Notes under the pieces: generated by a model | What the model saw: the letters and a program-made list of their open reading frames with translations, nothing else | The model's database searches: none | Told to the model about the DNA's origin: nothing | Assembly: GCF_946480305.1 (NCBI RefSeq) | Contig: NZ_CAMLJQ010000001.1 | Span: 1 to 64,000, forward strand | DNA length: 64,000 nt | Direction: 5' to 3' | From: an uncultured Caldimonas sp. | GTDB taxonomy: Bacteria > Pseudomonadota > Gammaproteobacteria > Burkholderiales > Burkholderiaceae | Made by a program: the position numbers and the translations under genes | Shown here: piece after piece, positions 30,882 through 39,778 of the stretch | How positions within the stretch are numbered: the first letter of the stretch is position 1 | Layout of the letters: each line of letters starts with the position of its first letter

Positions 30882-32180
<1,299 letters not shown>

Positions 32181-32262
32181 AGTCTCCCTCTGGGGCAGGT
32201 GGCGTCCTCCTCGCGACCTGCCGTCAAGTGAGAAGCTCCAACCGCATCGCTGCGATGCATTG

Positions 32263-32291
32263 GCCCGGCGACCTGCTCGCCGGGCTTTTTT
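32263..32291 (+). terminator. Intrinsic terminator after aceA
   Basis: GCCCGGCGA (32263-32271) and TCGCCGGGC (32277-32285) form a perfect 9-bp stem with a 5-base loop, followed by six T residues. Confidence 0.9.
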
Positions 32292-32304
32292 CCATCTGCT
32301 GCGC

Positions 32305-32310
32305 TAGAAT
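32305..32310 (+). promoter_or_regulatory. Probable -10 element of the thrS operon promoter
   Basis: TAGAAT lies just after the aceA terminator and about 50 bases before the leader peptide ATG. No good -35 hexamer is seen 17 bases upstream, so the call rests on the -10 and on position. RNA starting near 32317 would include the whole attenuator region. Confidence 0.4.
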
Positions 32311-32360
32311 CCGAGCCTTCTTCTTCTGAACCAGCAAGAGCGAGAAAGGCACGACGGGTT

Positions 32361-32405
32361 ATGACACCGCGAACTACGACCCCCTTCACCTTCTTCAAGG
32401 TCTAG
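32361..32405 (+). CDS. Thr/Phe-rich leader peptide of the thrS operon attenuator
   Basis: A 14-codon open frame, MTPRTTTPFTFFKV, with stop TAG at 32403-32405. Five of the fourteen residues are Thr (codons at 32364, 32373, 32376, 32379, 32388) and three are Phe (32385, 32391, 32394). An AAAGG-type ribosome site lies about 12 bases upstream. It is followed at once by overlapping antiterminator and terminator arms before thrS. The downstream operon encodes both threonyl- and phenylalanyl-tRNA synthetase, so stalling at either codon type would report poor charging of the tRNAs those enzymes serve. The assignment is from sequence logic; expression is untested. Confidence 0.75.
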   Translation: MTPRTTTPFTFFKV

Positions 32406-32413
32406 TCGGTCGG

Positions 32414-32469
32414 CCGCGGCTTTCGTTTGTCTGTTCTCCAACAAAGCGCGGCGACCACCGCGCTTTTTT
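32414..32469 (+). promoter_or_regulatory. Transcription attenuator (antiterminator/terminator pair) upstream of thrS
   Basis: Terminator: AAAGCGCGG (32443-32451) pairs with CCGCGCTTT (32458-32466), followed by T residues to 32469. Antiterminator: CCGCGGCTTT (32414-32423) can pair with the same AAAGCGCGG arm, apart from one bulged G. The early leader CCGCG (32367-32371) can pair with CGCGG (32415-32419) as a protector stem. A ribosome at the leader stop would cover the 32414 arm and allow termination; one stalled on Thr or Phe codons would leave it free and allow read-through. Confidence 0.7.
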
Positions 32470-32510
32470 GTTTTCTGCGGCCCGGTACGGGTCGCCTCAG
32501 AGAGGTCCTC

Positions 32511-34430
32511 ATGGTTTCAGTTCAGTTGCCCGATGGTTCCAAGCGTGAGTTCCCCGGGCCAGTGACGGTGGGTGAGGTGGCGGCATCGATCGGCCCCGGG
32601 TTGGCGAAGGCTGCGATCGCGGGGCGAGTAGGGCAGGGCAGCGACGCCCGCGTGGTCGATACGAGCTACCGCATCGAGAGTGACGCGTCGCTCGCCATCC
32701 TGACCGACAAAGATCCGGAAGGCCTGGATGTCATCCGGCACTCAACTGCCCACCTGCTGGCCTACGCCGTGAAGGAGCTTTTCCCGGACGCACAGGTGAC
32801 GATCGGCCCGACGGTCGAGAACGGCTTCTACTACGACTTCTCGTACAAGCGTCCTTTCACGCCCGAGGATCTGCAGGCCATCGAGAAAAAGATGGCCGAA
32901 CTCGCGAAAAAGGACGAGAAGGTCGAGCGGCGAGTGCTGCCGCGCGATGAGGCCGTTGCCTACTTCAAGAGCATCGGCGAGCACTACAAGGCCGAGATCA
33001 TTGCGAGCATTCCTCAGAACGAGGAGGTTTCGCTGTACCGCGAGGGCGGGTTCGAGGACTTGTGCCGCGGCCCTCATGTGCCGAGCACCGGCAAGCTGAA
33101 GCACTTCAAGCTGATGAAGGTCGCCGGCGCCTACTGGCGCGGCGATCATCGCAACGAGCAATTGCAGCGCATCTACGGCACGGCGTGGGCATCCAAGGAA
33201 GAACTGCAGCAGTACCTGCACATGCTCGAGGAGGCCGAAAAGCGCGATCACCGCAAGCTGGGTCGTGAACTGGATCTGTTCCACATCGACGAGCACTCGC
33301 CGGGCACCGTGTTCTGGCATCCGAAAGGCTGGGCGTTGTGGCAGCAGGTCGAGCAGTACATGCGACAGGTGTACCGTGAAAACGGCTACCTGGAGGTCAA
33401 GGGGCCGCAGATCCTGGACCAGGGCCTCTGGGAGAAGACCGGCCACTGGGGCAAGTACCGCGAGAACATGTTCACGACGGAGTCGGAGAAGCGCGACTAC
33501 GCGCTCAAGCCGATGAACTGCCCCGGTCACATCCTGATCTTCAAACAAGGCATCAAGAGCTATCGCGACTTGCCGCTGCGCTTCGGCGAGTTCGGCCAGT
33601 GCCATCGCAATGAGCCCACCGGGGGGTTGCACGGCATCATGCGGGTGCGCGCCTTCACTCAGGACGACGGCCACATCTTCTGTACCGAAGATCAGGTGCA
33701 GGGGGAGGTTGCAGCCTTTACTTCGCTGCTGCAGCGGGTCTATCGAGACTTCGGCTTCACTGAGATCATCTACAAGCTGTCGACGCGGCCTGAGCACCGC
33801 ATCGGAACCGAAGAAAGCTGGGACCGGGCGGAGGCTGCGCTGGCCGACGGTCTGCGTGCCTCCGGATGCGAGTTCGAGTACCTGCCGGGCGAGGGCGCTT
33901 TCTACGGGCCCAAGATCGAGTACACGTTGAAGGACGCGCTGGGCCGGGAATGGCAATGCGGCACCATCCAGATCGATCCGAACATGCCGGAGCGGCTCGA
34001 TGCGGAGTTCGTGGCGGAAGACGGCAGCCGCCAGCGGCCGCTCATGCTGCACCGAGCCATCGTGGGCAGCCTCGAAAGGTTCATCGGCATCCTGATCGAG
34101 CAGCACGCGGGGGCGCTGCCCGTCTGGCTTGCTCCGGTGCAGGTTGTCGTGGCCAATATCACCGACGCGCAGGCGGATTACGTTCGGGAAGTGGTCAAAA
34201 CGCTGCAAAAACAAGGACTTAGAGTTGAGAGCGATTTGCGCAACGAAAAAATCACGTATAAAATCCGCGAGCATTCGTTGCAGAAGGTTCCCTACATCCT
34301 CGTTGTCGGCGACAAAGAGAAAGCGGCGGGAACCGTCGCAGTGCGCGCCCGGGGCAACCAAGACCTCGGTGTGATGTCACTCGACACCTTCTCCCTGAAG
34401 ATTGCAAGCGACATTGCCCAGAAGGCTTGA
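32511..34430 (+). CDS. thrS: Threonyl-tRNA synthetase
   Basis: A 639-residue class-II synthetase charging tRNA-Thr. In order: TGS domain (1-61), editing/SAD domain (about 65-225), catalytic core with Zn ligands in [16 protein letters not shown] and MLHRAIVGS and motif 2 around [14 protein letters not shown], and a C-terminal anticodon-binding domain (about 535-639). Start is ATG 32511; the open frame back to 32427 runs through the attenuator terminator and is rejected. It is first in the thrS-infC-rpmI-rplT-pheS-pheT-ihfA operon. Confidence 0.97.
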
Positions 34431-34514: not shown

Positions 34515-35063
34515 ATCGCTACTTTCATGGACCGGCGCACTCCCAACGTGGAGCGCAAACATCGACTGAATCGGGAAATCACCGCACCGGAGGTCCGGCT
34601 GAACGGTCCCGAGAACGAACCCATCGGCATCGTGAGCCTGCAGGAAGCGCTGCGGTTGGCCGCGGAGCACGATGTCGACCTCGTCGAGATTGCACCGACG
34701 GCCGCGCCGCCGGTGTGCCGGTTGATGGACTACGGCAAGTTCAAATACCAGGAGCAGAAGAAGGCTGCGGAGGCGAAGGCCAAGCAGCACGTCATCGACA
34801 TCAAGGAAGTGAAGTTTCGCCCCGGCACCGACGAGGGCGACTACCAGATCAAGCTGCGCAACCTGCGCCGCTTCCTCGAAGAAGGTGACAAGGGCAAGGT
34901 GACGCTGCGGTTCCGCGGTCGCGAAATCACGCACCAGGAACTCGGCATGCGATTGCTGGAACGTGTGCGTGACGATCTCGCCGACGTCAGCGTGGTCGAG
35001 AACATGCCCAAGCTCGAGGGCCGCCAGATGATCATGGTGCTGGCGCCCAAGAAGAAGAAATAA
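34515..35063 (+). CDS. infC: Translation initiation factor IF-3, probable non-AUG (ATC) start
   Basis: IF-3 binds the 30S subunit, prevents premature 50S joining and checks start-codon pairing. The N-domain ([18 protein letters not shown] to about 85), Lys-rich linker ([21 protein letters not shown]) and C-domain ending PKKKK are complete. The ATG at 34527 has its GAGG site over 20 bases away. An in-frame ATC at 34515 has GAGG at 34502 with normal spacing, adds I-A-T-F, and mirrors the rare AUU/AUC starts by which IF-3 limits its own synthesis. Confidence 0.95.
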
Positions 35064-35197
35064 GGCTCCGCGACGGAGCCGTCAGGTTCGAAACCTGTTG
35101 CCGGTCTGGTCGCCGGCAGCAAGGCCAAGTGGCCCGGGGCCGACAAGACCGCGAAAGGTTCGCGGCGCCTCACGGGCACAACGAAGAAGGAGCAGTC

Positions 35198-35401
35198 ATG
35201 CCCAAAATGAAGACCAAGAAGAGCGCGGCCAAGCGTTTCCGCGTTCGTCCGGGTGGCACCGTCAAGCGCGGTCAGGCGTACAAGCGCCACATCCTCACCA
35301 AGAAGTCCACGACCCGCAAGCGCCATCTGCGTGGCGCAGCCAACGTGCACGACACCAACATGGGCCACATCGCGCAGATGATGCCCTTCGCTGGTCTGTG
35401 A
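35198..35401 (+). CDS. rpmI: 50S ribosomal protein L35
   Basis: A 67-residue basic protein, [19 protein letters not shown] at the N-terminus and [11 protein letters not shown] at the C-terminus, typical of bL35. AGAAGGAG precedes the ATG. The upstream open frame to 35129 is the spacer after infC and is not part of the protein. Co-transcribed with infC and rplT, as in most bacteria. Confidence 0.97.
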
Positions 35402-35439: not shown

Positions 35440-35799
35440 ATGCCTCGCGTCAAACGTGGTGTTACCGCACGCGCCCGTCACAAGAAGATCCTGGCCCTGG
35501 CCAAGGGCTTCCGTGGTCGCCGCAAGAACGTATTCCGCATCGCCAAGCAGGCGGTGATGAAGGCCGGCCAGTACGCCTACCGCGACCGCCGTGCCAAGAA
35601 GCGTGAGTTCCGCCGTCTCTGGATCGCCCGTATCAACGCGGCGGCACGTGAGCAGGGCATCACCTACAGCAAGTTCATGAACGGCATGAAGAAGGCCTCG
35701 ATCGACATCGATCGCAAGGTGCTTGCCGATCTGGCTGTGAACGACCCGGCTGCGTTTAGCAGCATCGTCGCAAAGGTGAAGGCTCAGCTCGCTGCTTGA
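35440..35799 (+). CDS. rplT: 50S ribosomal protein L20
   Basis: A 119-residue basic protein ([20 protein letters not shown] start) essential for early 50S assembly. In other bacteria L20 also represses the rpmI-rplT mRNA; the 135-base infC-rpmI spacer could host such a site, but I cannot fold it reliably. GAAGGAG precedes the ATG. Confidence 0.97.
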
Positions 35800-35866: not shown

Positions 35867-35897
35867 AAAAGGCCGACACCTTGTTCGGCCTTTTTTT
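35867..35897 (+). terminator. Internal intrinsic terminator between rplT and pheS
   Basis: GGCCGA (35871-35876) and TCGGCC (35885-35890) form the stem, extended by flanking A/T pairs, followed by seven T residues. It is only about 50 bases before pheS, so part of the transcription must read through or pheS must have its own promoter. No Phe-rich leader peptide is seen in this gap. Confidence 0.8.
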
Positions 35898-35947
35898 ATG
35901 TCCAGACCGATAGAAGCGCGCTCGTTGCAGTGCGCCGATTGCAAAGC

Positions 35948-36985
35948 ATGAACGAGCTCGATCAACTGGTGTCGCAGGCGCGTGCCGATTTTGCCCAGGC
36001 GCCCACGCCCACGGACCTTGAGAACGCGAAGGCGCGCTACCTCGGCAAGGCCGGCCGCGTCACGGAACTCCTGAAGGGTCTCGCTGCCTTGTCGCCTGAG
36101 GACAAGAAGTCGCGCGGTGCAGCCATCAACGACGCAAAGCAGAAGGTGGAAGCGGCGTTGAACGAGCGTCGTCAGGCTCTTGCCGATGCCGAATTGGAAG
36201 CGCAGCTGAAGGCCGAGGCGCTCGACGTGACGCTGCCTGGGCGTAGCAGGGGAGTCGGTGGCCTGCATCCGGTGATCCGCACGATGGAGCGGATCGAAGC
36301 GATCTTCGGCTCGATGGGCTTCGACGTGGCAGACGGCCCCGAGATCGAAGCGGACTGGTTCAACTTCACGGCGCTCAACACGCCGGCCGACCACCCCGCC
36401 CGGTCGATGCACGACACCTTCTACGTGGAAGGTGGGCATCTGCTGCGCACGCATACCAGTCCGATGCAGATCCGCTATGCCGTGCAGCACGTGAAGCGAC
36501 ACCGGGCGCTGCTGGACGCAGGGCAACCGATGCCGGACATCCGCGTCATTGCCCCCGGGCGGACCTATCGCGTCGACAGCGATGCGACGCATTCCCCGAT
36601 GTTCCATCAGGTCGAAGGCCTGTGGGTGGGGGAGAACGTCAGCTTCAAGGATCTGAAGTCGGTCTACGTGAACTTCCTGCGCGAGTTCTTCGAGACCGAC
36701 GACATGCAGATCCGCTTCCGGCCGAGTTACTTCCCGTTCACGGAGCCGAGCGCCGAGATCGACATGATGTTCAACAGCGGTCCGCTGAAGGGCCGCTGGC
36801 TCGAAGTGTCGGGATCGGGGCAGGTTCATCCGCAGGTGGTCCGCAACATGGGGCTCGACCCTGAGCGCTACATCGGCTTCGCGTTCGGCTCCGGCATCGA
36901 CCGTCTGGCGATGCTGCGCTACGGTGTCAGCGATCTGCGTCTGTTCTTCGATGGTGATCTGCGTTTCCTGTCGCAGTTCAAGTAA
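35948..36985 (+). CDS. pheS: Phenylalanyl-tRNA synthetase alpha subunit
   Basis: A 345-residue subunit from ATG 35948. An N-terminal coiled coil (about 1-85) contacts tRNA. The catalytic class-II core follows with [19 protein letters not shown], the DTFYV and HTSPMQIRY segments, [15 protein letters not shown] and [17 protein letters not shown] (motif 3). It works as an alpha2-beta2 enzyme with PheT, whose gene starts 15 bases later. Confidence 0.97.
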
Positions 36986-37000
36986 AGGTACTGAGTCGAA

Positions 37001-39418
37001 ATGCAATTCCCAGAATCGTGGCTGCGTGAGTTCTGCAACCCGCCGATCGGCACGCAGGAACTGGCCGAGGTGTTGACGATGGCGGGGCTGGAGGTCGAAG
37101 AGCTGCGCCCTGTGGCGCCGCCTTTCCAGCGTGTGGTCGTGGCACAGGTGCTCGAAGTGGCAAAGCACCCGAATGCCGACCGCCTGAACGTGTGCCAGGT
37201 GGATGCCGGCACCGGTCAACCGCTCAACATCGTCTGCGGCGCACCGAACGTGCGGCCCGGCATCAAGGTGCCGTGCGCGCTGGTCGGCGCCGAACTGCCG
37301 CCCGGGGAAGACGGCAAGCCCTTCCAGATCAAGCTGGGCAAGTTGCGCGGGGTCGAAAGTCAGGGCATGTTGTGCTCTGCGCGGGAGCTGCAGCTGTCCG
37401 AAGACCAAAGTGGCTTGCTCGTGCTCGACGACGCTGCTCGGGTGGGGCAGGACATACGCGAGCATCTGCGGCTCGACGACGTCCTGTTCACCTTGAAGCT
37501 CACGCCGAATCTTGCACACTGCCTCAGCGTGTATGGCATTGCACGTGAAGTGTCTGCGTTGACCGGGGCTCCGTTGAAGGACGTCCGGTTCGATCCGGTG
37601 CCCGTCAGCAACGCCGACAAGCTGCGTGTGTCGATCGAGGCGCCCGACTTGTGCGGTCGTTTTTCGGGTCGTGTGATTCGCAATGTCGACACGAAGGCGC
37701 GCACACCGGCTTGGATGGTGGAGCGGCTCGAGCGCTGTGGCCAGCGGTCGGTGACGGCCCTGGTCGATATCTCGAACTATGTGATGTTCGAATTCGGCCG
37801 TCCGTCGCACATCTTCGACCTGGACAAGATCCACGGTGGCCTCAACGTACGTTGGGGCCGTGCTGGAGAGCAGTTGAAGCTGCTGAACGGCAACACCATC
37901 GAGGTCGACGAGAAGGTCGGCGTGATTGCCGACGACGAGGCTGTCGAGTCACTGGCAGGCATCATGGGCGGTGACGCGACCGCGGTCTCGGATGCCACCC
38001 GAAACATCTATGTCGAGGCGGCGTTCTGGTGGCCGCAGTCGGTGGCGGGCCGTTCGCGTCGCTACAACTTCTCCACCGACGCGGGGCATCGTTTCGAGCG
38101 GGGAGTCGATCCGGCATTGACGGTGGAGCACATTGAGCGCATTTCGCAGCTTGTGCTTGAGATCTGCGGTGGAGAGCCGGGCCCGATGGACGATCAGATC
38201 GTCAACCTGCCTGAACGACGGCCGGTGACATTGCGGGTCGCGCGGGCGGCGAAGGTGATCGGCATGCCTGTCACGCAGCAGCAGTGCGCCGATGTGTTCG
38301 GGCGGCTCGGGCTGTCGTTCACCGAAGGCGACGGTACGTTGACGGTGGCGCCACCAAGCTGGCGCTTCGACCTCCAGATCGAGGAGGACCTGATCGAAGA
38401 GGTCATCCGCGTCATCGGGTATCAGAACCTGCCCGACACCGCGCCTGCAGGGCCGATCCTGCCGCGCGTGCGGACCGAGTCGCAGCGCGGGCTGCACGCG
38501 GTACGTCGCGCGCTTGCCGCGCTTGGATACCAGGAAACGCTGAACTTCAGCTTCGTCGAGGAGCGCTGGGAGCACGATTTCGCCGGCAACGCGAAACCGA
38601 TCCGCTTGTTGAACCCGATCGCGAGTTCGCTCAGCGTGATGCGCTCATCGCTGATCGGCAGCCTGGTGCAGGTGCTGCGTTTCAACCTCGCCCGCAAGGC
38701 GGGCCGGGTGCGTGTATTCGAAGTGGGGCGGGTGTTTCTGCGCGACGACAGCGTGACGGAGAGCGATGCAACCGTGGGCGGGTTGCGCCAGCCGATGCGT
38801 GTGTGCGGCCTGGCGTATGGAGGGGCGGCACAGTTGCAATGGGGTGTGGCAGACCGTCCGGTGGACTTCTTCGATGTGAAGGGCGACCTGGGCGAGTTGT
38901 TTGCGCCGCTGCAACCCGGCTTTGTCGCCACCGAGCATCCGGCTTTCCATCCAGGGCGGTGCGCGGCCATCATGCTCGACGGCGTGGTCGTCGGCCATGT
39001 CGGCGAACTGCATCCCAAGTGGCGGCAGGCCTACGAACTGCCGCACGCCCCGGTGATCTTCGAGGTGGATGCGACGGCTTTGCAGCGCCGTCCGGTGCCT
39101 GCCTACAAGCCAATTGCGCGGCAACAGGCCGTCACGCGGGACCTCGCGGTCATCGTTTCCGACAAGGTTCGTTACGACGCGTTGGTCGAGGCGGTGCACG
39201 CCGCGCCCACCGGGGGGCTGGTACGTGAGGTGACGCTGTTCGACATCTACAAGCCCAAAGCGGCTGCCACGGATATCGGCGCGGATGAGCGCAGCGTGGC
39301 ACTGAGGCTTGAGTTGCTCGACGACGACGCCACGCTGACCGATGAACGGATCGATGCGGCAATGAAGGCGGTGGTCGATACACTGGGGGCCCGGCTGGGG
39401 GGCCGATTGCGCGGCTGA
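37001..39418 (+). CDS. pheT: Phenylalanyl-tRNA synthetase beta subunit
   Basis: An 805-residue subunit with the usual domain order: tRNA-binding OB fold (about 40-150, [16 protein letters not shown]), B3/B4 editing domain (about 215-390), B5 domain (about 410-475), the catalytic-like domain and the C-terminal anticodon-binding FDX-ACB domain (about 710-805, [15 protein letters not shown]). Length is normal. It removes mischarged Tyr-tRNA-Phe and binds tRNA. Confidence 0.97.
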
Positions 39419-39436: not shown

Positions 39437-39778
39437 ATGGATCGAGCGATTCTTCCTTCCATCGAGACGCCGACGCTGACGAAGGCCGAACTTGCGGACC
39501 TGCTGTTCGAACGACTCGGACTGAACAAGCGCGAGTCCAAGGACATGGTCGAGGCCTTCTTCGAGATCATCCACGCAAGCCTCGTGGAAGGCGAGGATGT
39601 GAAGCTGTCCGGATTCGGCAACTTCCAGATCCGGCGCAAGGCACCGCGCCCGGGGCGCAACCCGCGCACCGGAGAGGCCATTCCCATCAAGGCGCGAAAT
39701 GTGGTCACATTTCACGCGAGCCACAAGTTGAAGGGTGTTGTGCAGGGAGACATTCCCGCGGGAGAAGACTTCGAGTAA
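39437..39778 (+). CDS. ihfA: Integration host factor alpha subunit
   Basis: A 113-residue HU/IHF-fold protein that bends DNA at specific sites as a heterodimer with IHF-beta. The core [20 protein letters not shown] and the DNA-binding arm [21 protein letters not shown] are present. The N-terminal extension ([12 protein letters not shown]) is common in betaproteobacteria. It follows pheT by 18 bases with a GGAGG site, the conserved pheT-ihfA arrangement. Confidence 0.95.

Follow-up and report, generated by a model that had tools for sequence, protein, structure and literature searches.

The window, meaning the whole 64,000-nucleotide stretch of DNA analysed here, comes from an uncultured Caldimonas sp. 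of the order Burkholderiales. Pfam matches gave the order isocitrate lyase, ThrRS, IF-3, L35, L20, PheRS alpha, PheRS beta and HU/IHF-family protein. On the + strand, the corresponding features were thrS (32511..34430, with its ATG at 32511), infC (34527..35063), an open frame holding rpmI (35129..35401, with the L35 match at residues 25-85 and the gene start inside the frame), rplT (35440..35799), pheS (35930..36985, with the ORF start as listed and a later ATG possible), pheT (37001..39418) and an HU/IHF-family gene (39437..39778), which we take from its position to be ihfA. These matches confirmed the order thrS-infC-rpmI-rplT-pheST given in the first-pass annotation, and the HU/IHF-family gene then followed pheT. 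The cluster headed by the leader was thus thrS-infC-rpmI-rplT-pheS-pheT-ihfA. A terminator scan of 32000-32700 gave three terminator-like sites, compared with 0.7 ± 0.9 in shuffles; one of the three, at 32262-32286, lies 3′ of aceA.

The leader ORF, MTPRTTTPFTFFKV, occupied 32361..32405 on the + strand, ended with the stop codon TAG and was identified from the sequence and from its conservation in relatives. Thr was encoded at positions 2, 5, 6, 7 and 10 (ACA, ACT, ACG, ACC and ACC, respectively) and Phe at positions 9, 11 and 12 (TTC in each case), with ATG (1), CCG (3), CGA (4), CCC (8), AAG (13) and GTC (14) as the other codons. This is the 14-codon leader with five Thr and three Phe codons that had been described from a first reading of the sequence. 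Possible ribosome-binding sites were seen by eye on the + strand for the leader (GAGAAAGG, 32342..32349) and for thrS (AGAGAGG, 32499..32505). The 151-nt leader folded better than its shuffles (z -2.6; 4 of 200 shuffles were equally good), and no Rfam family, T-box included, was found in it at the gathering score.

Scanning and folding located an intrinsic terminator 3′ of the leader at 32443..32469 (+ strand), formed by segments 3 and 4 (stem 32443-32466) and a T tract, in agreement with the earlier claim. Folding also gave segment 1 at 32367..32381 (codons 3-7), its partner within segment 2 at 32408..32419, and an apical hairpin, ACCTTCTTCAAGGT, at 32388..32401, which holds Phe codons 11 and 12. 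According to duplex computation, the antiterminator part of segment 2 lies at 32413..32428 and pairs with segment 3 at 32439..32451, which consists of an A-tract and the 5′ terminator arm; all of these elements are on the + strand. This computation located an antiterminator arm 3′ of the leader stop, as proposed, that begins to pair 8 bases beyond the stop codon and not nine. The duplex of 32413-32428 with 32439-32451 reached -12.6 kcal/mol compared with -10.3 in shuffles (z -1.2), and by another measure its z was only -0.4.

The comparison covered three sets: ThrS loci from named genomes (80), loci selected through the leader pattern (30) and upstream regions of thrS in family members (110; 30 that had loci plus 80 additional entries), the last taken from among 395 genomes in which ThrS was matched. 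Some listed ThrS matches, several with a known pattern match, stayed outside the fetched set, as did L066, in which the ThrS start was missing. A recognisable leader, with recognition relying on the R-T motif itself, was present in 178 of the 205 usable regions, the window included, and absent from 27. Restricting the count to regions fetched by ThrS similarity, with the window itself and 15 usable loci picked by pattern set aside, gave 162 of 189, a few genomes occurring twice. Removal of repeats left 166 distinct leaders encoding 147 peptides. Met-Thr-Pro-Arg-Thr was invariant in all 154 distinct leaders of the MTPR type, and the remainder varied freely. Twelve leaders with other starts, such as MFFPLARTTT in Achromobacter, MIQAPRTTT in Ralstonia and MIARTFT in Pandoraea, were left out of the codon counts, which refer to the 154 MTPR leaders.

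Thr was frequent beyond the invariant start. Residue 6 was Thr in 119 and residue 7 in 82 of the 154 MTPR leaders, each leader carried 2-9 Thr codons, and the leader tails contained 366 Thr, compared with 254 ± 8 in phase-keeping shuffles. Across 93 nearest-neighbour leader pairs, Thr retention was 0.71 compared with 0.545 for all residues. In a thinned set of 95 of the 154 MTPR leaders, TANAAT was found 25-90 nt 5′ of the leader ATG in 74 relatives, compared with 3 in one shuffle of each. The window has TAGAAT at 32305..32310 (+ strand), a probable -10 box by its position and by the frequency of TANAAT in relatives; the promoter scan returned no sigma-70-type promoter, TAGAAT at 32305-32310 included. 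Judged from the sequences, conservation in relatives is the strongest evidence against a chance origin of the leader. Annotating and testing the leader is easy, since it is short, has five invariant first residues in the MTPR group and is known here from over 150 distinct versions.

Two wider samples were compared. The order sample consisted of 29 loci (L222-L250) besides the centre genome. ATG-started leaders with R-T and further Thr were present in L222, L227, L235, L236 and L246, Thr-containing ORFs without R-T in L223 and L225, and R-T in weaker ORFs only in L234 and L237. The class sample consisted of 25 ThrS loci (L251-L275) with the two best Thr-scoring ORFs each, the start being extrapolated in L272, L273 and L275. 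Among the two best ORFs per locus, none of these 25 loci had an R-T leader in which a run of Thr is followed by a terminator. One of them, L264, had an 8-codon ORF, MSTTTAQR, located 172 nt 5′ of thrS and followed by a hairpin after roughly 70 nt, which is possibly an unrelated Thr leader.

A terminator was present for all 107 leaders tested; the choice of terminator looks wrong for L009 and is doubtful for L043. Pairing statistics were calculated for 104 of these leaders, after three with fewer than 14 nt before the terminator arm had been dropped. The 1:2 (protector) hairpin was stronger than in dinucleotide shuffles, with a mean z of -0.92 (47 of 104 below -1, 3 above +1). Measured as the energy gained on adding the arm, 2:3 pairing did not differ from shuffles (mean z -0.07; 22 of 104 below -1, 19 above +1). 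A measure tried after the energy gain had shown nothing, the strongest duplex that the intervening region forms with the terminator arm, gave a mean z of -0.78 (45 of 104 below -1, 5 above +1). In L067 and L080, which carry a GGCCTCG arm, segment 2 paired with its own arm at -18.9 compared with -10.2 for the common arm, and in L070, with a GTGCGG arm, the values were -17.0 and -10.1. Segments 2, 3 and 4 thus differ together in these three leaders. In the two large arm groups, the cross-pairing table did not clearly favour a leader's own arm: with two foreign arms, GCGCGG leaders reached -13.8 and -16.8, compared with -13.0 for their own, and ACGCGG leaders gave -12.3 with their own compared with -16.0 with the GGCCTCG arm.

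Segment 1 may itself pair with the terminator arm (1:3, through CCGCG of codons 3-4); this duplex had a mean z of -1.5 against shuffles (81 of 104 below -1, 3 above +1), a signal exceeding that of 2:3. It could mean that translation of the leader itself, and no given amino acid, sets termination. Such a pairing is likely anyway, because CGCG is self-complementary and segment 2 fits both segments 1 and 3. It had a z above -0.1 in 8 of the 12 non-MTPR leaders and is therefore not kept where the leader start and the arm differ. Furthermore, a stall at Thr codons would place the ribosome over segment 1 and thereby promote termination, the opposite of the response expected of a synthetase gene. We give this explanation the least credence of those weighed here and regard it as highly improbable.

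We consider it probable, at about 0.7, that the leader of the thrS operon acts as a Thr-responsive, ribosome-mediated transcription attenuator, a reading drawn from sequence comparison. The leader stands before thrS, and its Thr codons are cognate to ThrRS, the product of the first gene. With ample Thr-tRNA, a ribosome would pass Thr codons 5-7 quickly and arrive at the TAG just 5′ of segment 2. Segment 2 would then be covered or weakened, segment 3 would be free, and the 3:4 terminator would halt transcription before thrS. With scarce charged tRNA-Thr, the ribosome would wait at the Thr codons and cover segment 1, so that segments 2 and 3 could pair, the terminator would be prevented, and transcription would continue into thrS and the genes downstream of it. 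An untranslated leader would form the 1:2 pairing and the terminator. The sequences show the anatomy, its conservation and, in a few divergent leaders, co-change of the pairing segments; that the ribosome stalls, that transcription reads through and which way the response runs are inferred.

A masking model, in which the RNA under the ribosome was masked to 12 nt beyond the A site, was used to compute the hold of the upstream RNA on the terminator arm. For the window, this hold was -0.4 kcal/mol without a ribosome, -6.0, -4.9 and -4.9 kcal/mol with the ribosome at Thr5, Thr6 and Thr7, respectively, and -3.9 kcal/mol at the stop. With the ribosome stalled at Thr6, the arm was held more than with the ribosome at the stop in 57 of 92 thinned leaders and less in 20; relative to no ribosome, the hold was greater in 70 and smaller in 15. 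Within the model, these results follow classical attenuator logic, with a modest contrast.

Codon choice at the leader start showed a further constraint. ACA and CCG were used in all 154 MTPR leaders, CGA in 143 and ACT in 136, and CGA followed by ACT was also found in 12 of the 12 non-MTPR leaders. In the window, this nearly invariant dicodon lies at 32370-32375 (+ strand, identified from codon counts in relatives). Both codons are rare in the seven genes counted, which are those of the operon and aceA, CGA making up 15 of 206 Arg codons and ACT 8 of 111 Thr codons. Thr sensing alone is insufficient to explain the near-invariance of CGA-ACT. The rare dicodon could be the key element, with slow decoding of CGA or the RNA sequence timing the ribosome and amino-acid sensing being secondary, but the further Thr codons and the location before thrS would then be unexplained, and we judge this to be very unlikely.

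The design of a Thr attenuator makes Phe codons unnecessary. The first-pass annotation had proposed a dual Thr/Phe attenuator. In this reading, lack of either Thr or Phe would stall the ribosome 5′ of segment 2 and lead to read-through into thrS and pheST. The part that stands, as a probable reading, is a Thr-sensing, ribosome-mediated attenuator before thrS that is kept across Burkholderiales; Phe sensing was not established, and the dual form seems to us rather unlikely. Phe was over-represented in the tails of the 154 MTPR leaders, with 81 codons in the leader frame compared with 31 ± 5 in phase-keeping shuffles; the two alternative reading frames contained 21 and 35. The thinned set gave 58 compared with 22 in shuffles, and at least one Phe was present in 45 of its 95 leaders. 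At least one Phe was also present in 11 of the 15 leaders nearest to that of the window, and both members of neighbour pairs had Phe in 24 of 93 cases compared with 17 expected. In the masking model, stalls at Phe9, Phe11 and Phe12 of the window held the arm as well as a Thr stall (-6.1, -6.6 and -7.6 kcal/mol, respectively), and across the thinned set Phe stalls were 2.57 kcal/mol stronger than the stop (n=56), compared with 1.38 for other residues (n=337).

Several observations argue against Phe as a second input. Any Phe was found in 65 of the 154 leaders, two or more in 14, three in 2 and none in 89, and the Phe codons had no fixed place. Codon conservation in relatives, on which the dual proposal had been made to depend, held for Thr (0.71) but was poor for Phe, whose retention of 0.33 between near relatives was the lowest among the ten residues with 50 or more occurrences. 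By the same shuffle, the excess of Glu was larger than that of Phe (81 compared with 19), and the shuffle is therefore a poor null for amino acids. L222, L227, L236 and L246 of the order sample had Thr but no Phe.

Glu and Phe were over-represented in the variable leader tails, and Tyr, His, Asn and Asp were scarce. Compared with shuffles of codon order, the tails folded more stably (mean z -0.61; 51 of 154 below -1, 5 above +1). Phe as a by-product of RNA pairing was considered and rejected: pairing does not explain the Phe excess, because the paired share of Phe codons (27 of 81, 0.33) barely exceeded that in shuffles (0.30). Phe codons were also paired less often than tail codons as a whole (0.45 compared with 0.57).

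Any response of pheST to the leader would extend only as far as transcription passes a terminator-like hairpin in the rplT-pheS gap. This hairpin, which also speaks against the dual reading, was found in 59 of the 68 loci compared, the window included (35867..35894, + strand); it was recognised there by comparison of loci, the hairpin at 35867-35894 being missing from the pattern-scan list. The presence of Phe in the leader was not linked to the absence of the hairpin (Fisher p 0.44, 51 loci). A separate Phe leader before pheS was considered and set aside: among the best ORFs, one per locus in 68 loci, none with an ATG start had more than two Phe. These best ORFs held 0-4 Phe, and those of L047 (4 Phe) and of L015, L032 and L066 (3 Phe each) started with TTG or GTG. 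It is conceivable, though doubtful, that the subclade of the window gained Phe codons in and beside the apical hairpin and so acquired a two-input attenuator that reads out both thrS and pheST. If such a form existed, related lineages would show the one-input Thr form, and the gain of an input could be traced step by step.

The gammaproteobacterial pheST attenuator has the leader peptide pheM. The putative thrS leader would work by a mechanism of known kind and differs from the devices of E. coli thrS and gammaproteobacterial pheST. As described in PMC1183508, enterobacterial ribosome-mediated attenuators control the trp, his, thr, ilvGMEDA, ilvBN and pheA operons. Like the leader studied here, they have a terminator before the first gene and a short ORF that contains the regulatory codons; their three competing pairings have predicted counterparts here. 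The thrS leader differs from them in being very short, in having a tRNA synthetase gene as its first gene and in carrying only 2-9 Thr codons. According to PMC1262725, the gammaproteobacterial pheST attenuator is likewise a case of classical attenuation of a synthetase operon; there, a Phe leader lies directly before pheST, whereas the leader in the window precedes thrS and has Thr as its conserved codons. Firmicutes T-box leaders, as outlined in PMC1262725, resemble the putative thrS attenuator in switching a synthetase gene by tRNA charging through a terminator. They differ in that a leader ORF is present here and no T-box was found at the Rfam gathering score.

In E. coli, ThrRS binds hairpins of its own mRNA at the ribosome-binding site of thrS, as stated in PMC3858243. 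The same gene would be controlled here, but in the window a leader ORF and a terminator precede thrS. Burkholderiales appear, from their upstream regions, to use a leader peptide for thrS control; with a leader peptide here and a ThrRS operator in E. coli, two unrelated devices would therefore serve one essential synthetase gene among related bacteria. Among the matches listed, the open-licence literature contained no description of a thrS leader peptide in Burkholderiales, and specialised comparative papers (Vitreschak 2004; Lopatovskaya and co-workers) may list one. The word thrS does not occur in the main text of PMC2965389 or PMC4833913.

The thrS upstream regions also contained other elements. 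Among the 27 regions lacking a recognisable leader, 22 had a terminator-like hairpin within 170 nt. In L001, L002, L011, L023, L054, L141 and others, a hairpin lay closely 3′ of a TAAAAT box in the last 100 nt before thrS. By eye, GCGTTT or GCGTTC in these loci could pair with AAGCGC of the terminator arm. A tRNA-Val (gac) gene was located 5′ of thrS in 17 of the 29 order-sample loci and in L060, and L247 had tRNA-Asp in place of tRNA-Val.
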